NCBI GenBank assembly: GCA_024642485.1
Contig: JAHEAY010000048.1
Coordinates: 1-35,932 of the forward strand
Direction of reading: 5' to 3'
From: Cytophagaceae bacterium
Lineage (GTDB): Bacteria; Bacteroidota; Bacteroidia; Cytophagales; Spirosomataceae
Length of the DNA stretch: 35,932 bases
This document shows, one piece after another, positions 5,804-30,240 of this stretch. Under the pieces are notes generated by a model, which saw nothing but the letters and a program-made list of their open reading frames with translations, did not search any database and had not been told where the DNA came from. The position numbers and the translations under genes are program-made. Numbering within the stretch: position 1 is the stretch's first letter; the number at the start of each line of letters is the position of its first letter.

Positions 5804-7207
5804 CTATTGTGCTATGCCAAAGACTTCCAAGCGATTCAAATCTGAAATTGTCAAAATGCCTTCCGACTCAAAATACAAGCCTACACTTTCCAAAAGTGCG
5901 GCAATTTCCCCTTGTAAGGGCTCCGAGGATTCTACCCAACGAGTCCAAAATTCCGACAAGGATTCTTCGTAAACTTCTTCCACCAAAGCATAAAATTCTT
6001 GACGAGTATACCCATTTTTCAGTTGGCCGTAGCGTTCCTGCATCAGTAACATAACGTCGCGGAGCGATTTGGCATGTTGGAATTTCCGACGAATCAACAG
6101 ATCCAAACCTAAAGCAACCAAAGCCCCCTTAAAATAGATTGAAACCCGTTTACCCGGCAAGGCAGAACCATAACCGTCTAACCACAAATCAATCGAACTT
6201 TCTAACAACGACTGCTTTGAAGCTCCATCCCGTTCGAAATGTAATTTCAAATTACCCGCCAATAAATTCACATATTCATCCGGATTCACCACACCCGAAG
6301 CCCACAAAAACCAATCCCCCAAATAGGTCGTAATCCCCTCTACTATCCAACCTGTGTCAAAAATAACCGCTTTGGTATAATCATAGGGCAATAAAGCTTT
6401 CGGTCGGATCGTCGCCACATTCCACACATGATACAATTCATGCGAACCCAAACCGATCAAATCCTCATAGGAATCCCGATCCTCCGGACCCATGACCATC
6501 ATTGTCGATTTCGTATGCTCAACTCCGTGATAGAATGGCTTAGGGCAAATCCACAACATAAAACGATATTCTCGAACAGGAAATTCCCCCATATAATCGA
6601 GCTGATAGGCAACAAATTTTTGGTAGGCCTTGAGCAATCGGTCCGAAAAATGCGTCTTAGGCCCCAAGCCCTGCAAATAGAATTTCACCCCATGGGTTTT
6701 CCAAGCATGCGTATGGAGTTGAGGCGCAGCAAGAAAAGGCGAATCGACCAGTTCGCGATACGATTTTGCCCGAAATTTATTTCCGAAAGTCCTTAATGCA
6801 CAGGACGTTTCGTATCCTCCCGCCGGCGGTAACAAGACTTCCACCTCACATGCCCGATTCTCCCCGCGATGTGGGAACAACAAACAATTCACAAAATTGA
6901 TGTAAACCATCGAATCATCCACCCAAGATCCCCCCGCATCCGGCTGCTCCGCATGATAACGATAAGTCACGGTGATGGGTTTTAAGTCCTTAACATCTAC
7001 TATCCAAGAGGACAAATCCGATTTCACAACCAGTGCATCAGCACAAGTAACTGTGGCAATGTTTTTCGCAAAATGTTGAACCTGATAACGCCCCGGTCGC
7101 CAAATAGGCAAATGCAATGCCAGCGGCCCTATGCGCGAAGGCATAAATGTCAACTCAATATCCAACGCATGAAACGATGGCTTTATTCGATATTTCAAAG
7201 TCCTCAT
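5804..7207 (-). CDS. M61-family (glycyl aminopeptidase-like) metallopeptidase lacking PDZ domain
   Basis: A 467-aa zinc peptidase of family M61. The zinc motif HELYH lies at residues 256-260 (H256, E257, H260), with the third ligand candidate E290 in WIVEGITTYLGDW. The upstream GVEHTKSTMM segment is also typical of M61. An N-terminal beta-rich domain (1-160) precedes the thermolysin-like catalytic part. Typical M61 members are about 550-600 aa with a C-terminal PDZ domain and often a signal peptide; here the protein ends shortly after the catalytic domain and starts MRTLKYRIKP, with no signal sequence, so it is predicted to be cytoplasmic. Its ATG overlaps the recO stop by 4 bases, implying translational coupling. 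Confidence 0.88.
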   Translation of the reverse strand: MRTLKYRIKPSFHALDIELTFMPSRIGPLALHLPIWRPGRYQVQHFAKNIATVTCADALVVKSDLSSWIVDVKDLKPITVTYRYHAEQPDAGGSWVDDSMVYINFVNCLLFPHRGENRACEVEVLLPPAGGYETSCALRTFGNKFRAKSYRELVDSPFLAAPQLHTHAWKTHGVKFYLQGLGPKTHFSDRLLKAYQKFVAYQLDYMGEFPVREYRFMLWICPKPFYHGVEHTKSTMMVMGPEDRDSYEDLIGLGSHELYHVWNVATIRPKALLPYDYTKAVIFDTGWIVEGITTYLGDWFLWASGVVNPDEYVNLLAGNLKLHFERDGASKQSLLESSIDLWLDGYGSALPGKRVSIYFKGALVALGLDLLIRRKFQHAKSLRDVMLLMQERYGQLKNGYTRQEFYALVEEVYEESLSEFWTRWVESSEPLQGEIAALLESVGLYFESEGILTISDLNRLEVFGIAQ

Positions 7208-7890: not shown

Positions 7891-8659
7891 GATCCAAGCC
7901 TATTTCCTGCTGCAAACGAGTCAATATTTCCTCTGTCGTCGCATCTGCCGAAAAGCGAATCGGCTCACGGAACTCGACCGTCAGCGTCGTATTACGCTTC
8001 CGCATCAATAATCCCTTTTTGTCAAATGCCCGTCGGAACCCATTAATGCGCACCGGCACCACAATCGGATTTTCTCCCTTAATCAAATGCGCCGTTCCCT
8101 TCCGCAAGGGAGCAAAAGCACGTGTCGTTCCCTGTGGAAAACTAATAACCCAACCGAATTTTAAGCCTTTCCCAATCTTTTCCACCGCCGCCAAATCAAC
8201 CTCCCGCTTCACATCAACTCCCTCGGCACGCCAAGAGCGGTTCACCAAAATCGCTCCTGCCTGGGCTAAAACGCGTGGCAATAAACCATCATTTTTCATG
8301 GTTTCGGATGCGGCCACATAAAAGAGGTTAGAACGAGGGGCCATTAAATAAAAAGGGTAATTCAGCGTATTCCGAAAACCCCATTTGACCGAAAAAAAGA
8401 TATGATACAAACACACCACATCCATGAAATAAGTCTGGTGGTTTGGCAAAAAAAGCACGCCTTCATTTGGCAAATTTTCCAAATGCTCCGTCCCTGTAAT
8501 CTTCGTTTTGTTGTATATCGTCAAGCGATTGTACGAAATGAATCCCAAAATCACCATGATGATCCGCTTGAACAAAATGGGATTGCCAAAGGGATCTCGC
8601 TCACCCAATCCGAGCGTGTCCATGAAACGAAACACTTTGGCCAACTTTGACTGACTCAT
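7880..8659 (-). CDS. PlsC-like 1-acyl-glycerol-3-phosphate acyltransferase
   Basis: Probably transfers an acyl chain to lysophosphatidic acid, or a related acceptor, at the inner membrane. The 259-aa protein has the acyltransferase block I as NHQTYFMD (residues 73-80) and block III as FPQGTTR (174-180), plus PIVVPVRINGF as block IV. Two features differ from textbook PlsC: the His and Asp of block I are separated by five residues rather than four, and block III has Gln in place of the usual Glu. I recall this HQTYF variant from Bacteroidota homologues, so it is likely a lineage subtype, not decay. A hydrophobic helix sits at 32-42. It starts one base after the giant gene upstream and overlaps recO downstream. 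Confidence 0.85.
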   Translation of the reverse strand: MSQSKLAKVFRFMDTLGLGERDPFGNPILFKRIIMVILGFISYNRLTIYNKTKITGTEHLENLPNEGVLFLPNHQTYFMDVVCLYHIFFSVKWGFRNTLNYPFYLMAPRSNLFYVAASETMKNDGLLPRVLAQAGAILVNRSWRAEGVDVKREVDLAAVEKIGKGLKFGWVISFPQGTTRAFAPLRKGTAHLIKGENPIVVPVRINGFRRAFDKKGLLMRKRNTTLTVEFREPIRFSADATTEEILTRLQQEIGLDHAE

Positions 8660-23173: not shown

Positions 23174-23584
23174 ATGATCAGTTTCCATACAGAAGACGTT
23201 TCTTTCAAGCTGCAAGACAAAATCAAGCACAAGCAATGGCTGCAAGCGGTTGCGAAAGAAGAGCAAAAAAAGATCGGAGAGTTGAATTATGTGTTTTGCT
23301 CCGACAGCTATTTATTGGAGATCAACCAGAATTATTTGCAACACGATACCTACACAGATATCGTGACATTTGACAATTCGGATGACCCGAAAATCATCGA
23401 AGGAGACATCTTTATTTCCTATGATCGCATCCTGGAAAATGCGCAAAAATTTGGGACCGAAGAAAGCGAATTGCAACGCGTCATGGTGCATGGCCTGTTG
23501 CATCTTTGTGGGTATAAGGACAAGGCGAAGGCCGACAAAGACCAGATGACGAATAAGGAAAATTACTATTTGGCAAAAAGATAA
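23174..23584 (+). CDS. ybeY: Endoribonuclease YbeY (16S rRNA maturation factor)
   Basis: A metal-dependent RNase involved in 16S rRNA 3'-end maturation and ribosome quality control. The 136-aa protein has TYTDIVTFD, GDIFIS and the metal motif HGLLHLCGYKDK with H106 and H110. The usual third histidine, at position 116, is Asp here (GYKD instead of GYDH). I recall the GYKDK form from other Bacteroidota, so the protein is probably active with an altered ligand. It lies between yraN and mnmG; the gap to mnmG is 23 bases and is almost filled by a parS site. Confidence 0.93.
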   Translation: MISFHTEDVSFKLQDKIKHKQWLQAVAKEEQKKIGELNYVFCSDSYLLEINQNYLQHDTYTDIVTFDNSDDPKIIEGDIFISYDRILENAQKFGTEESELQRVMVHGLLHLCGYKDKAKADKDQMTNKENYYLAKR

Positions 23585-23607: not shown

Positions 23608-25476
23608 ATGAAGATGATGCAGAATTCATATGACGTAATCGTAGTAGGAGCGGGGCATGCAGGCTGTGAGGCGGCGCATGCAGCAGCCCAAATGGGCTCA
23701 AAGGTGTTGTTGATTACGATGAACATGCAAACGATTGCCCAGATGTCCTGCAACCCGGCGATGGGGGGTGTGGCGAAGGGCCAGATCGTTCGTGAAGTAG
23801 ATGCCCTAGGAGGGATGTCGGGAATCATTTCCGACAAAACGATGATTCAGTTTCGAATGTTGAATCGTTCGAAGGGGCCGGCGATGTGGTCGCCAAGATG
23901 CCAATCGGACCGCGCGCGTTTTGCAGAAGAATGGCGCTGGGCTTTGGAACAGAATACCAATGTTGATTTTTGGCAAGATTCTGTGGAAGGCTTAATCGTT
24001 GAAAACGACGAAGTGAAAGGAGTGAACACCCGATTGGGAATGCAGTATTTTGCCCCTACAGTTGTGCTTACAAATGGTACCTTTTTAAATGGTTTAATCC
24101 ATATTGGGGAAAAACATTTTGGCGGAGGAAGAATGGCTGAGCCCATGGCTGGAGGTATCACAGAACAATTAATTCAATTGGGCTTTGAAGCGGGTCGGAT
24201 GAAGACAGGAACCCCGCCGCGTGTGGATGGACGGAGTTTAGATTATTCCAAAATGGAAGAACAAAAAGGGGATGAGAATCCAAGCTCATTTTCATATTTG
24301 ACGAAGGCGCCTATCCAAGCACAACGCTCATGTTGGATTACACATACGAATGAAAAAGTACACGAGGTTCTTCGAAAAGGATTTGATCGCAGTCCGATGT
24401 TTGCAGGAAGAATCAAAGGCTTAGGGCCGCGCTATTGTCCATCCGTGGAAGATAAAATCAATCGCTTTGCGGATAAGGATTCCCATCAAATTTTCGTTGA
24501 GCCGGAAGGGTGGAATACCGTTGAAATTTATGTGAATGGATTTTCAACATCGCTTCCGGAAGACATTCAATTCGAAGCAATCCGCTTGATCCCAGGATTT
24601 GAAAATGCGAAAATGTTCCGACCAGGTTATGCGATCGAATACGACTATTTCCCACCGACGCAATTGAATGCGACCTTGGAAACAAAACGTGTTTCGGGTT
24701 TATACTTTGCCGGACAAATTAACGGTACAACAGGCTATGAAGAAGCTGCTTGCCAAGGATTAATGGCCGGTATCAATGCACACCAAAAAGCACACCAAAA
24801 AGAACCTTTTACTTTATCGAGATCGGAGGCTTACATTGGCGTTTTGATCGACGACTTAATCAACAAAGGTACGGATGAACCTTACCGCATGTTTACGTCA
24901 CGCGCAGAGTTTAGAACCTTGTTAAGACAAGATAATGCCGATGAGCGCTTAACTGAAAAAGGCTTCGGCTTGGGATTGGCAACGCAAGAACGTTTGGATA
25001 CTTACCTGAACAAAAAGGAACAAGTCGCTGCGTTAATTGAAACCATTCAAACAACGAAAGTGAAGCCTGCGGAAATCAACGATTGGTTGCAAGAACAAGG
25101 AACCGCAACATTGAAGGAGGGGGCACCGCTGATTAATTTATTGAAGCGATCCGACTTGAGTTTTGAACAAATTCTCCAACACGAAATTGGCCAAAGTATC
25201 AAAGAAGCATATTCGCAAGAAGTGCTTGAGCAAGTTGAAATTATTGTCAAGTACGAAAGCTATATCGAGAAAGAGCGTTTGATGGTAAACAAGATGAAGA
25301 GCATGGAAGATTTGGCGATTCCGGCGAACTTCGATTATGACAAAATCAAAACCTTGTCCACCGAGTCTCGCATTAAACTTAAATCGATTCGTCCACAAAC
25401 CATTGGTCAAGCGAGCCGCATATCAGGTGTGTCTGCTGCTGACGTTTCGATTTTACTTTTATTTATGGGTCGTTAA
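23608..25476 (+). CDS. mnmG: tRNA uridine-5-carboxymethylaminomethyl modification enzyme MnmG (GidA)
   Basis: With MnmE, installs the carboxymethylaminomethyl group at U34 of tRNAs, using FAD. The 622-aa protein has the FAD-binding [12 protein letters not shown] (12-23), the catalytic-loop SCNPAMGG with C48, the mid-region [12 protein letters not shown], and the C-terminal helical domain, whose conserved [18 protein letters not shown] ends the protein. The ATG at 23608 is used; one at 23614 is equally possible. In many bacteria mnmG neighbours the replication origin, as here, where oriC-like sequence lies 2.5 kb downstream. The usual partner rsmG (gidB) is absent. Confidence 0.97.
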
Positions 25477-25478
25477 TT

Positions 25479-26363
25479 ATGGAAACATTACAAAACTGTC
25501 CGGCATGTGGTGAGTCAGAAATGACTACACATTTACAAGCCAAAGACTATACCGTCTCAAAAAACACTTTCACAATTGTTCGTTGTGCAGCCTGTGATTT
25601 ACTCTTCACGAATCCACGACCGGAAGCAGAACAAGCGGGCTATTTTTACCAATCGGAGAATTACATCTCCCACAGCAATACGCAAAAAGGATTCATCAAT
25701 AAGCTTTACCATGCGGTTCGAAAAATAACCTTGAAACAAAAAACAAATTTGATTCAAGGCGATCAACAAGGGACTAAATATCTATTGGATATCGGTTGTG
25801 GCAATGGGCACTTTTTACATGCTTGTCAACAAGACGGATGGAATACCTTTGGCATGGAACTCGATCCTGAAACAGCAGCACGTGCAGCAGCATTAACAGG
25901 TCAAAGCATATTCCCAAATTTACAGGCCATCCCCGATGAGCCTCAATTTGAATTGATCAGTTTGTGGCATGTATTAGAACATGTGTATGAAATCGACGCC
26001 TATTTTGAGTTCTTCAAAAAACGCATTAATCCAGGCGGTAAATTGCTTTTAGCCTTACCCAATTCGAAATCTTTTGATGCGGATTATTTTAAAGAATTTT
26101 GGGCGGCCTATGATGTTCCACGTCATATTTATCATTTCAATCCAGAAACAATTCAGTCGATTGCCAAAAAACACGGATTTAAATTAGCCAAACAACACGG
26201 CCAAATTTTCGACAGTTTTTACATTGCCCTGTTGAGTCACGAATACAAAACCGGAAGCAAGAAATTAATCGCTTCATTTTTCGTCGGCCTTTGGTCAAAC
26301 CTAATAGCCTATTTCAAAACAGGTAATTATTCGAGTAATATCTATATTTTTGAACATGCCTAA
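25479..26363 (+). CDS. SAM-dependent methyltransferase with N-terminal zinc ribbon
   Basis: A 294-aa class I methyltransferase of the Methyltransf_23 type. C7-x2-C10 and C36-x2-C39 form a probable zinc ribbon. The SAM-binding motif I is LLDIGCGNGHFL (102-113), and the HVLEHV block follows at about 164-169. The later ...AYDVPRHIYHF...FDSFYIALLSHEYK stretch is common in Bacteroidota homologues found next to envelope or glycan genes. The C-terminal hydrophobic stretch (residues about 266-278) may associate with membrane. It begins 2 bases after mnmG and overlaps the following lipoprotein gene by 8 bases. The substrate is unknown. Confidence 0.85.
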   Translation: METLQNCPACGESEMTTHLQAKDYTVSKNTFTIVRCAACDLLFTNPRPEAEQAGYFYQSENYISHSNTQKGFINKLYHAVRKITLKQKTNLIQGDQQGTKYLLDIGCGNGHFLHACQQDGWNTFGMELDPETAARAAALTGQSIFPNLQAIPDEPQFELISLWHVLEHVYEIDAYFEFFKKRINPGGKLLLALPNSKSFDADYFKEFWAAYDVPRHIYHFNPETIQSIAKKHGFKLAKQHGQIFDSFYIALLSHEYKTGSKKLIASFFVGLWSNLIAYFKTGNYSSNIYIFEHA

Positions 26364-27978
26364 ATTCGTGCAAAAACTCGCATTCGTCACATTTATCCTG
26401 TTCATCAGCTTGAGCATGTTTCAGCGTTGTGCACAAACGGCAAGTCCTCCGGGCGGAAAAAAAGATACCTTAGCGCCCAAAATTTTAACTAGTATTCCGC
26501 TAAACAAAAGCAAAAATTATACCGGAAAGAAAATCGAATTGAATTTCAATGAATATGTAACAATTAGAAATTTGAATCAAGAATTATTGATCACTCCGAA
26601 TGTGGGAACTTATGAAACACGTATCCGACCTACGGGCGTGACTTTACTATTGGACTCCACACTACATAAAAACACAACCTATACCTTCAATTTCCGAAAC
26701 GCGATTGAAGATATGTCGGAGCGCAATAAAGGCAAAAACATCAAGCTCGTTTTCAGTACGGGATCCGATATTGATTCTTTACAAATCAGCGGCCAGGTGA
26801 AACATTTGGAGACAAATAAAAAGCTAGAATCTATTTTGGTTGGCCTATATCCTTACACGGATACCTTGCGCATTGATCAGGCAAAGCCATACTATTTTAC
26901 GAAAACGGATACGTCTGGAAATTACCAAATAGAGAACATTGCAGCTGGCAAATATTACATGGCGGCATTTAATGACATCAACAATAATTTGGTTTATAAT
27001 TCAAACAAGGAACCTGTTGATTTCATCACACAAAACTTTATTGATTTAAAGAAAAGTCAAACGCAGGATTTTAAAATTGCTTTGCAAAATCAAGATCCCT
27101 TAAAAATAAGTAAGACGACGAGCACAGCTAAAACGGTTTTATATGAATTATCGAGGGGTGTAAAATCGATTGAGCTCCAACCGAAAAATCTGTCATACCA
27201 AATTGAATCACACCGAAACCTTCGTTTCTATGTGGGAAACGTGGAACATCAAGACACGGTACGTATATCAGCAATCGTAACAGATTCATTAAATCGGAAA
27301 ACGACCTTAGCTTTGAAGCTAAAATTTAGAGAGCCTAATAAGAAAGAAAAGGTCGTCAATACACCTTTACGTATGGAAGTTTTTCCAGCAAGCAATCATT
27401 TGTTAAGTCCTGAGGATTCGATTGTAATCAAATTTCCAAAACCGATCGCTTTAATAAATACAAAAGCAATCTCGTTCGTAACAGGCCCTGATGAAGAGAT
27501 TCAATTACCCGACGAGGCCTACAACTGGAATAGCTATGTGAATGAACTAAGCATTCAGAAAGCTTATTTGCCTTTGCGTAATCGTTTTGAATTGAAATTT
27601 GCGAAGCATGCTTTTGTCAGTGTGGAAAAAGATTCCTCCCAAATATTTACACAAGCATTTGAATTTCAAGATTTAGAAAATTATGGAAGTATTTCAGGGA
27701 GTATCAACACACCTAAAGGAAAACATGTATTTCAGTTAATCAAATCGGATACGAAGGCTTTGGCATACCAACAAACGGGCGAAAACACATTCAATTTTCC
27801 ACACGTGGAACCCGGTTTATATGAATTACGTGCTATCGAGGATCGCAATGGTAATGGACTTTGGGATTTAGGCAACTTTAAAACAAAAGAAAAGCCTGAG
27901 TCGATCTATTTCTTCCCAGGCAAGATCAAATTGAAGGCCAACTTCCAGATCAGCGATGTGTTGATAAGTACCCAATAA
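26356..27978 (+). CDS. Ig-like (Big_5/SbsA-type) lipoprotein
   Basis: A 540-aa surface or periplasmic lipoprotein. The signal helix ends in SMFQRC with the lipid-accepting C25, followed by AQTASPPGGKKDTLAP, a signature of Bacteroidota Ig-like lipoproteins. Residues about 36-140 form the Ig-like domain (KILTSIPLNKSK, then NFNEYVTI, then TYTFNFRNAIED). A carboxypeptidase-regulatory-like beta sandwich follows at about 145-240 (GQVKHLETNKKLESILVGLY, then DTSGNYQIENIAAGKYYMAAF), and a similar fold recurs near the end (FPHVEPGLYELRAIEDRNGNG). The ATG at 26356 is preferred over a TTG six bases upstream; it overlaps the methyltransferase by 8 bases. It is the last gene before the origin. Confidence 0.85.
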   Translation: MPKFVQKLAFVTFILFISLSMFQRCAQTASPPGGKKDTLAPKILTSIPLNKSKNYTGKKIELNFNEYVTIRNLNQELLITPNVGTYETRIRPTGVTLLLDSTLHKNTTYTFNFRNAIEDMSERNKGKNIKLVFSTGSDIDSLQISGQVKHLETNKKLESILVGLYPYTDTLRIDQAKPYYFTKTDTSGNYQIENIAAGKYYMAAFNDINNNLVYNSNKEPVDFITQNFIDLKKSQTQDFKIALQNQDPLKISKTTSTAKTVLYELSRGVKSIELQPKNLSYQIESHRNLRFYVGNVEHQDTVRISAIVTDSLNRKTTLALKLKFREPNKKEKVVNTPLRMEVFPASNHLLSPEDSIVIKFPKPIALINTKAISFVTGPDEEIQLPDEAYNWNSYVNELSIQKAYLPLRNRFELKFAKHAFVSVEKDSSQIFTQAFEFQDLENYGSISGSINTPKGKHVFQLIKSDTKALAYQQTGENTFNFPHVEPGLYELRAIEDRNGNGLWDLGNFKTKEKPESIYFFPGKIKLKANFQISDVLISTQ

Positions 27979-28464
27979 ACCCCCATTTTATCCACAATAG
28001 CTGTGGACGAATGTGGATAAAATTTCATACCCTGTGGAAAATGTGTATAAGTCCACACTTATCCACGTAATACGGAAACCTTATCCACAAGTTGATAAGT
28101 TATTTAAAATTATCAACTTCCTGATTAATAGCATATTACAAATCAAATTCTGACTTATCCACATATCCACAGAGAACAACAAAGAGAAACAAAGAAAAGA
28201 TTTTAAAAAGTTTTTCTTTTTTTAATTTATATGTGTGGATAAATGAAATCTACCGGTTGACACAGGTGAAGTATACAATTTTTGATGTTATATTGATATT
28301 TTACCCTAAAAAAATATTTAATTAAGATATAATAGCATATTTATACCCCACGAATTGTGGATAACTTGTGGACAATAAATACTTGTGTACAAAATATTCG
28401 TTTAAAAGTGCAAATCGAGGAGCTGATTTGTTAACTTTGATATTCATTACCAACAAACTCAATC
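27979..28464. other. Probable chromosomal replication origin (oriC)
   Basis: A 486-bp gene-free stretch with six perfect DnaA boxes (TTATCCACA): plus strand at 27988-27996, 28081-28089 and 28155-28163; minus strand at 28012-28020, 28234-28242 and 28356-28364. Near-consensus boxes include TTTTCCACA at 28033-28041 (minus), TTATACACA at 28042-28050 (minus), TTATCCACG at 28059-28067, ATATCCACA at 28163-28171 and TTGTCCACA at 28367-28375 (minus). AT-rich runs at about 28200-28232 and 28280-28345 could be the unwinding element. parS sites 4-6 kb to the left support the assignment. dnaA is not adjacent. Confidence 0.88.
28432..28439 (+). promoter_or_regulatory. Candidate -7 promoter box for the acyl-CoA synthetase gene
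   Basis: TAACTTTG fits TAnnTTTG and lies 25 bases before the ATG at 28465, at the right edge of the origin region. The -33 element is poor. Its distance from the last DnaA-like box is about 50 bases, so DnaA binding could influence this promoter; that is inference. Confidence 0.5.
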
Positions 28465-30240
28465 ATGCTTGAATTTTCAAATTTCACCCGCGTATTTGAT
28501 TTACTGCCGATTTACGATCAGCTCCATAAATCGGATTTGTTTTGCTTGAAGCGAAATGGCGAATGGCGAAAATATAGTTCGGAAGAAACTTTGGATATCA
28601 TTCAAGATGTTGCTTTGGGACTTTTGGCTTTGAAGATTAAACCAGGAGATAAAATTGCCATCATATCGGGCAATCGGCCGGAATGGAATTTTGTTGATTT
28701 TGCTATTCAATTGATTGGTGCTGTTTCTGTGCCGATGTACCCAACCATAACTGTGGAAGATTATGCATTCATTTTTGAGAATGCGGAAGTGAAGTATGTG
28801 TTTGTGGAGGGAGAAGAATTATATCTTAAAGCGAAAGAGGCTGCGAAAGGAAATCGCAAGATTAAGAAGGTCTTTACTTTCGACCCAGTTGAGGGAGCTG
28901 CCATGTGGACTGATGTGAAAGATGCAGGTTTTGGTCAAGATCGTTCGCCATTGAAAGCTTTGAAAGATGCGGTGAAACCTAGTGATTTATTGACCTTAAT
29001 TTATACATCGGGAACAACCGGTCGGCCGAAAGGGGTTATGTTGACCCATCACAATATTGTTTCCAACGTAAAAGCTTTAATTCGTGGAAAGTTTTTTGAT
29101 TTACATGCGACAGATCGCGCATTAAGCTTTTTACCACTTTGTCATATTTACGAGCGGACCGACATTTACATGTACATGTCTTATGGTGTTTCGGTGTATT
29201 ATGCTGAAAGCATGGATACGATTGCAGATAATATCAAAGAAGTTAAGCCGTCCATGTTTGCTTCGGTTCCAAGATTATTAGAGAAAGTTTACGATAAGAT
29301 TTTAGCCAAAGGCAATGAGTTAACGGGTATCAAACGTAAATTATTTTTTGGCGCGATTGAATTTGGATTGCAATATGACCCGATGGTTCCGTTGGGTTTC
29401 GTGGATTCCATCAAATTAGCAGTTTATCGGAAATTGATTTTCAGTAAATGGCGTGAGGCCTTAGGTGGAAATGTGCGTTTGATTGCTTCAGGGTCCGCTG
29501 CCTTACAACCTCGTTTATCACGTGTTTTCTGGGCGGCTGGAGTACCTGTCAGTGAAGGATATGGGTTGACGGAGACCTCTCCAGTTATTTCGGTATCTCA
29601 AGTTAATCCCCCCGATTTCCGCATCGGTTGCGTGGGAACTTTAGTAGATAGCATGGAATTGAAAATTGCGGAGGATGGAGAAATTTGTGTGCGCGGGGAT
29701 TCGGTGATGGTCGGATATTACAAAAATCCAGGAGCAACGGCTGAGGCTGTCGATAAAGACGGTTGGTTCCACACGGGCGATATCGGTGAAATGGTGGAAG
29801 GTAAGTATTTGAAAATTACGGATCGTAAAAAAGAAATTTTTAAAACTTCGGGTGGTAAGTATGTAGCACCACAGTTGGTGGAAAATAAATTAAAAGAATC
29901 TGCGTTTATCGAACAATGCATGGTGGTTGGCGAAGGCCAAAAATTCCCTTCTGCATTGATTATTCCGGAATTTGCGGCTTTAGGTGTTTGGTGCAAGCAA
30001 CATGGAATTCCAGTTGGTACGCCTGAGGAATTGATCAACAATAAAGATGTTTTTCGAAAACTGGAGGAAGAGGTAATGTCCACCATGGGTTCTGTGGCCA
30101 AATATGAACAGGTTAAGAAATTCGTTTTATTACCTCGTTTGTTTACGGTTCAAGATGGTGAAATCACCCCTACCTTGAAGTTGAAGCGCAAGGCTATTTA
30201 TGCCAAACACGAAAAAGCCATTTTGGCATTGTATGAATAA
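28465..30240 (+). CDS. Long-chain fatty acid-CoA ligase (AMP-forming)
   Basis: Activates fatty acids to acyl-CoA via an acyl-adenylate at the inner membrane face. The 591-aa ANL enzyme has YTSGTTGRPKGV (180-191) for ATP, FLPLCHIYERT in the acyl-binding region, EGYGLTETSP as the adenylate motif, WFHTGDIG and ITDRKKEIFKTSGGKYV in the hinge, and a C-terminal lysine-rich PTLKLKRKAIYAKH containing the catalytic lysine region. This is the FadD15/long-chain subgroup common in Bacteroidota. It is the first gene right of the origin and seems monocistronic; the gmd operon has its own promoter 48 bases after its stop. Confidence 0.92.
   Translation: MLEFSNFTRVFDLLPIYDQLHKSDLFCLKRNGEWRKYSSEETLDIIQDVALGLLALKIKPGDKIAIISGNRPEWNFVDFAIQLIGAVSVPMYPTITVEDYAFIFENAEVKYVFVEGEELYLKAKEAAKGNRKIKKVFTFDPVEGAAMWTDVKDAGFGQDRSPLKALKDAVKPSDLLTLIYTSGTTGRPKGVMLTHHNIVSNVKALIRGKFFDLHATDRALSFLPLCHIYERTDIYMYMSYGVSVYYAESMDTIADNIKEVKPSMFASVPRLLEKVYDKILAKGNELTGIKRKLFFGAIEFGLQYDPMVPLGFVDSIKLAVYRKLIFSKWREALGGNVRLIASGSAALQPRLSRVFWAAGVPVSEGYGLTETSPVISVSQVNPPDFRIGCVGTLVDSMELKIAEDGEICVRGDSVMVGYYKNPGATAEAVDKDGWFHTGDIGEMVEGKYLKITDRKKEIFKTSGGKYVAPQLVENKLKESAFIEQCMVVGEGQKFPSALIIPEFAALGVWCKQHGIPVGTPEELINNKDVFRKLEEEVMSTMGSVAKYEQVKKFVLLPRLFTVQDGEITPTLKLKRKAIYAKHEKAILALYE

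Follow-up and report, generated by a model that had tools for sequence, protein, structure and literature searches.

A DnaA-box array downstream of mnmG and distant from dnaA as the very probable replication origin of an uncultured Aquirufa species

The stretch of DNA analysed in this study (the window, 35,932 nucleotides) constitutes the entire contig C18 of a genome of 238 contigs and 2.54 Mb that is 89% complete. Its mnmG gene shares 85% identity with mnmG of Aquirufa ecclesiirivi 50A-KIRBA, and the source bacterium is an uncultured species of Aquirufa, a freshwater genus of the Cytophagales. Downstream of mnmG, an intergenic region separates two genes, for a lipoprotein and for a fatty-acid-CoA ligase, both named correctly in an earlier interpretation made from the letters alone (hereafter the sequence-only reading). 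The neighbourhood is organized as follows.

23174-23584, + strand: ybeY (PF02130)
23608-25476, + strand: mnmG (gidA; PF01134, E 1.7e-165), 2.5 kb upstream of the box region
25479-26363, + strand: SAM methyltransferase gene (PF13489)
26350-27978, + strand: gene for a Big_5 Ig-like predicted lipoprotein (PF13205; "lipoprotein" from sequence), left neighbour of the proposed oriC
27979-28464, no strand: proposed oriC, an intergenic region of 486 bp flanked by the lipoprotein and ligase genes; 6 exact and 5 one-mismatch boxes, 70.6% A+T, position conserved
28465-30240, + strand: fatty-acid-CoA ligase gene (AMP-binding, PF00501), right neighbour of the proposed oriC

Neither dnaA nor dnaN was among the six neighbouring genes tested, which agrees with the absence of both genes beside the region in the sequence-only reading. 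The arrangement thus differs from origins of the dnaA-dnaN type, where one of these genes is adjacent; dnaA is located on contig C51. A box scan identified the following DnaA boxes in the region and at its left border, the tandem pair being also evident in an alignment.

27959-27967, - strand: one-mismatch box TTATCAACA, within the 3' end of the lipoprotein gene
27988-27996, + strand: exact box TTATCCACA
28012-28020, - strand: exact box TTATCCACA
28033-28041, - strand: one-mismatch box TTTTCCACA
28042-28050, - strand: one-mismatch box TTATACACA
28059-28067, + strand: one-mismatch box TTATCCACG
28081-28089, + strand: exact box TTATCCACA
28155-28171, + strand: tandem head-to-tail boxes TTATCCACATATCCACA, exact at 28155-28163 and one-mismatch at 28163-28171
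28234-28242, - strand: exact box TTATCCACA
28356-28364, - strand: exact box TTATCCACA
28367-28375, - strand: one-mismatch box TTGTCCACA

Chance as the source of this cluster is excluded by shuffled and Markov sequences. At no more than one mismatch, 30 box matches were found in the whole window, compared to a mean of 10.1 and a maximum of 18 in 100 shuffles. Among 2000 Markov sequences with the composition of the region, the highest counts were one exact box and three boxes with at most one mismatch, whereas the region contains 6 and 11, respectively. When all 1680 distinct permutations of the box were considered, TTATCCACA alone occurred more than twice in the region. The DnaA-box cluster expected of an oriC is hence present well above chance. 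These results bear out the sequence-only reading, which had counted six perfect and at least five near-match boxes in both orientations within 486 bp and regarded the cluster as non-random. Its background density for a specific 9-mer (one per 130 kb per strand) requires correction: the expectation is one per 262 kb per strand and one per 131 kb for both strands.

The AT-rich runs described in the same reading were recovered as well, since the region is 70.6% A+T and the 50 bp with the lowest stability in the window lie within it. Stability was computed as nearest-neighbour sums. These values point to AT-rich DNA next to the boxes that would melt easily, as known from oriC. The following elements were recorded.

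28095-28144, no strand: next least stable 50-bp stretch of the window after 28296-28345, counting stretches separated by more than 200 bp; nearest-neighbour sum -52.1
28126-28137, + strand: 12-mer TAATAGCATATT, copy 1, exact repeat
28155-28242, + strand: most conserved core in a 23-sequence alignment, comprising tandem boxes, A-rich purine tract, AT-rich stretch and inverted box
28296-28345, no strand: candidate DNA unwinding element; no 50-bp stretch of the 35.9-kb window is less stable; nearest-neighbour sum -47.6 (window mean -65.9, standard deviation 4.1)
28330-28341, + strand: 12-mer TAATAGCATATT, copy 2, exact repeat

The two copies of TAATAGCATATT are 204 bp apart, one in each of the two least stable 50-bp stretches. 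Copies or near-copies occur in the related stretches L162 and L163 and one in L037; none was found in L075, L160, L159, L147 and L153.

Across 23 aligned Aquirufa sequences, the 20-bp bins covering 28159-28238 showed mean identities to the window of 0.78-0.89, versus 0.42-0.72 in the preceding bins. A core of about 85 bp is therefore better conserved than the DNA to its left in this alignment; to the right of 28238 the alignment is blurred by coding sequence present there in many relatives. A box cluster was found at the end of the lipoprotein gene in all 21 Aquirufa relatives whose stretch reaches this gene (20 stretches and L075). Clusters upstream of the ligase gene were also detected in genomes G011, G026 and G019 and partially in G002; the upstream DNA in G004, G032 and G009 is too short to judge, and genomes with cut or missing ligase matches stand outside the genus count. 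A TPR gene, absent in the window, separates the boxes from the ligase gene in L147 (8413-9927) and L157 (8391-9908), and the TPR start codon of L147 shares bases with the final core box (8413-8422). The spacing suggests the same arrangement in L148-L156, L158 and L159, and the distance from boxes to ligase is 1.0-1.6 kb in many other Aquirufa. Given the TPR gene or extra DNA before the ligase in these relatives, the boxes keep to the side of the lipoprotein gene and not to that of the ligase.

Conservation at the level of the order was assessed with the best 80 of 585 loci matched by mnmG of the window, a set which, being anchored on mnmG and picked for closeness, says nothing on distant Bacteroidota. 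Seven loci were dropped (six without a detectable lipoprotein gene, one cut). In the remaining 73 from these best 80 of 585, at least four boxes with no more than one mismatch were present in the interval from -200 to +600 relative to where the lipoprotein gene ends in 61 loci, and fewer than four in 12. The median box density at this place was 8.75 per kb, compared to 0.36 per kb elsewhere in these loci, and it exceeded that of the remaining locus in 69 of the 73; the best tandem-box match (up to three mismatches, same strand) was located here in 60 of the 73. The usual order in the Cytophagales loci examined is mnmG (gidA), methyltransferase gene, lipoprotein gene, boxes. Same-order stretches that were found by the ligase and hold the lipoprotein gene contained the cluster in two of three cases; L137, from the same order and with the lipoprotein gene, revealed no box cluster. 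Eleven further same-order stretches with the ligase and no detected lipoprotein gene were devoid of a cluster, indicating that the ligase gene is often located elsewhere in the order. Downstream of mnmG, clear clusters were observed in five of seven single-contig genomes (G007, G416, G349, G140 and G040), while G348 has four one-mismatch boxes there and G358 has no cluster, with three scattered one-mismatch boxes.

The source genome contains 60 exact boxes in 2.54 Mb on both strands, versus 28 matches of a reversed control pattern. Six of these are located at the proposed oriC and four within 75 bp on contig C115; the others occur singly or at spacings of 476 bp or more. The proposed oriC is the largest exact-box cluster of this genome, which is 89% complete and whose missing portion of about 11% could hold another. 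The Aquirufa genome G007 (single contig, 2,505,188 bp) has 10 of its 42 exact boxes within 425 bp at the orthologous place, its largest cluster, and three exact boxes within 42 bp at a second place. When 60 stretches of 20 kb from G007 were scanned at no more than one mismatch, clusters appeared in just two, holding these two places. The largest cluster of the genome is also conserved in relatives; a smaller second cluster exists. The sequence-only reading had held that the same cluster at several loci would count against an origin; this is found in a weak form, with one smaller cluster of four exact boxes in 75 bp, at whose counterpart in G007 the skew keeps its sign. A group of three exact boxes within 100 bp also occurs in L314 (13170-13269, genome G349), far from the main cluster of that genome, so that small clusters are not confined to Aquirufa.

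The second cluster (L032, on C115 of the source genome G000, 6618-6711; G007, contig C1, 2134654-2134736) lies upstream of a PRA-PH (MazG-like) domain gene and downstream of an XRE-type gene. With a threshold of at least three boxes at no more than one mismatch, it was detected in all 33 testable Aquirufa genomes, among them the source genome (of 34 loci, one is truncated by a contig end). Its arrangement varies between subclades and the boxes persist; in five of five same-order relatives outside the genus, no such cluster was found within 500 bp of the gene (G045 by partial match). Our best guess is that it serves to titrate or recycle DnaA or to place the MazG-like gene under DnaA control. 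A doubtful, though conceivable, scenario for Aquirufa combines three elements: this lineage-specific cluster, about 0.9 Mb from oriC in G007, would titrate or recharge DnaA; dnaA lies nearly opposite the origin in G007; and an A-rich tract replaces the order-consensus CTAATAAC beside the tandem boxes. If it acts on DnaA, the second cluster would offer a handle on DnaA regulation in Bacteroidota.

Over the first 23 kb of the window, GC skew is predominantly negative; its sign is mixed between 23 and 28 kb and positive from there on, with the cumulative minimum in the 22-23 kb bin. The genes of the window change direction too, and much of its skew follows gene direction. In G007 (60 sampled stretches) the detrended minimum was found at 1.385 Mb and the boxes are 143 kb away, at 1.242 Mb; a sharp change in skew sign together with a strand change of the long ORFs occurs at the box locus itself. 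Undetrended data place the minimum of this genome at 0.21 Mb, and 1.08 Mb gives the best equal-halves split; the halves to either side of the boxes show a weak contrast (one-sided p 0.044, from non-independent stretches). With 20 stretches each, the detrended minima of G416 and G349 were 165 kb from the box cluster at 2.4545 Mb and 78 kb from that at 5.512 Mb, respectively, with dnaA far from the minimum in both. The skew check proposed in the sequence-only reading, carried out on sampled relatives, thus gave a divided result: in the three complete genomes, 1-6% of the circle separates the detrended minimum from the box cluster, but the undetrended minimum of G007 does not coincide. The skew backs the locus loosely; it is noisy, and its resolution is too coarse for placement on the kilobase scale.

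A single match to PF00308 (Bac_DnaA) was obtained in the source genome, on C51. This contig of 5.6 kb carries no exact box and three one-mismatch matches, versus 1.8 expected. An origin adjacent to dnaA was considered and rejected on account of the missing exact box on C51 and of G007, where the exact box nearest to dnaA is 24.8 kb away. Across 37 single-contig Cytophagales (36 among 391 genomes plus G007, most sizes rounded to 0.1 Mb), the distance between dnaA and mnmG ranged from 13.6% to 49.4% of the circle with a median of 23.5%, and in none of them was dnaA within 13% of mnmG, which served as stand-in for the origin; boxes were checked in seven, with mixed result. G007 is at the upper end of this range, its dnaA lying almost opposite mnmG (49.4%). 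In 26 of the 37 genomes this distance is 18-31% of the circle, which resembles a fixed mid-replichore position, in a count that ignores kinship. The position of dnaA away from the mnmG-lipoprotein locus is the rule in Cytophagales, in line with a genome paper according to which Bacteroidetes oriCs are commonly far from dnaA (PMC4755523). The gene context, called non-canonical in the sequence-only reading, is on this evidence the usual order near mnmG. A literature search, with DoriC entries outside it, returned no paper on an oriC with mnmG in Cytophagales, which does not deny publication elsewhere, and none joining DnaA-trio, oriC and "Bacteroid-".

The non-random box array with its conserved position and core, together with low duplex stability and the approximate skew turn in relatives, leads us to regard 27979-28464 as very probably the chromosomal replication origin (oriC) of this uncultured Aquirufa species. 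The strong oriC candidate without adjacent dnaA proposed earlier is thereby upheld: chance is excluded, the locus shows conservation within the genus and across the order, the skew is roughly consistent and dnaA is on another contig. At DnaA-type origins the boxes are bound, adjacent AT-rich DNA melts and the helicase loads; the tandem boxes, which are conserved and adjoined by unstable DNA, are consistent with these steps. We infer DnaA binding, melting and actual initiation in this region. DnaA encoded elsewhere on the chromosome would bind the box array and might nucleate at the conserved tandem pair (28155-28171). The neighbouring AT-rich DNA, at 28172-28233, 28296-28345 or both, would then open and allow helicase loading, and two forks would leave.

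Three other explanations were weighed. The region could be a DnaA-titration or recycling site of the datA or DARS type with the true origin elsewhere, as DnaA-control loci outside oriC are described for E. coli (PMC4585315, PMC12371093) and the source genome has a second, smaller cluster. The lack of a clear cluster in G358 and G348 slightly raises this possibility and slightly lowers confidence in oriC. It is nevertheless unlikely, as G007 has no larger exact-box cluster, the place near mnmG is conserved over the order, the least stable DNA of the window lies inside the region and the skew turns roughly nearby, while the samples around the second cluster of G007 retain a positive skew.

If the region were instead a promoter of the fatty-acid-CoA ligase gene under DnaA control, this could account for the last box ending 89 bases before the ligase start and for two weak promoter-like matches (28369-28398 and 28437-28466). 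Shuffles gave a mean of 3.6 such matches, and in many other Aquirufa the boxes are 1.0-1.6 kb from the ligase, with the TPR gene between in L147 and L157, which makes a promoter very improbable. A promoter and terminator scan showed no excess, and no RNA family was found in the window at gathering scores. The chance that the boxes mark an integrated plasmid or phage origin is smaller still: plasmid origins carry DnaA boxes as well, according to the DoriC paper (PMC6323995), but no rep gene was among the six neighbouring genes tested and the arrangement of genes recurs across the order. When 26350-30240 was searched for plasmid matches, only short ones came up, all in the ligase gene, and a plasmid origin was rejected.

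The region 27979-28464 is very likely a chromosomal oriC, an ordinary one in the usual context of its order. It represents the likely origin of the freshwater genus Aquirufa and provides a working rule for many Cytophagales, namely to seek the origin downstream of mnmG, past the Big_5 lipoprotein gene, and not at dnaA. Such a rule would aid growth-rate estimates from read coverage and the construction of origin plasmids.

In Escherichia coli and the Gammaproteobacteria, oriC is located between gidA and mioC. The Aquirufa locus differs in the two genes separating mnmG from the boxes and in its right neighbour, a ligase or TPR gene in place of mioC. Both share TTATCCACA boxes, AT-rich unwinding DNA, mnmG/gidA nearby and dnaA elsewhere (see also PMC6669920); the Yersinia oriC is described as like that of E. 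coli (PMC10225481). Predicted Bacteroidetes oriCs in DoriC, for instance of Prevotella intermedia OMA14, are likewise box-rich, at a skew transition and far from dnaA (PMC4755523); P. intermedia belongs to another order and was compared by description alone. The oriC plasmids of Cytophaga hutchinsonii (Xu et al. 2012), in experimental use according to PMC5891637, come from the same order as the Aquirufa locus.

Directly after the tandem boxes, the commonest letters in 62 loci of other genera are GCCCTAATAAC, while the window has GAGAACAACAA and other Aquirufa have variants thereof. DnaA-trios (at least three of 3'-NAN-5' near a box), sought with the strand polarity of B. subtilis, were found in none of four Aquirufa sequences including the window; in other genera 16 of 62 tandem-box loci had them, no more than shuffles. 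A same-strand version of the rule was matched by all four Aquirufa sequences, and by shuffles of such A-rich DNA 72% of the time. The basal unwinding system (BUS) of Bacillus subtilis consists of tandem DnaA boxes and DnaA-trios (PMC8287927). The window differs in that the box strand carries a purine tract rich in A and no run of three 3'-NAN-5' lies opposite, and because it departs from this published trio rule (PMC8287927) it was not filed under BUS. Like the BUS, it has tandem head-to-tail boxes adjoining unstable DNA (28155-28171), and its origin may open in a similar way.
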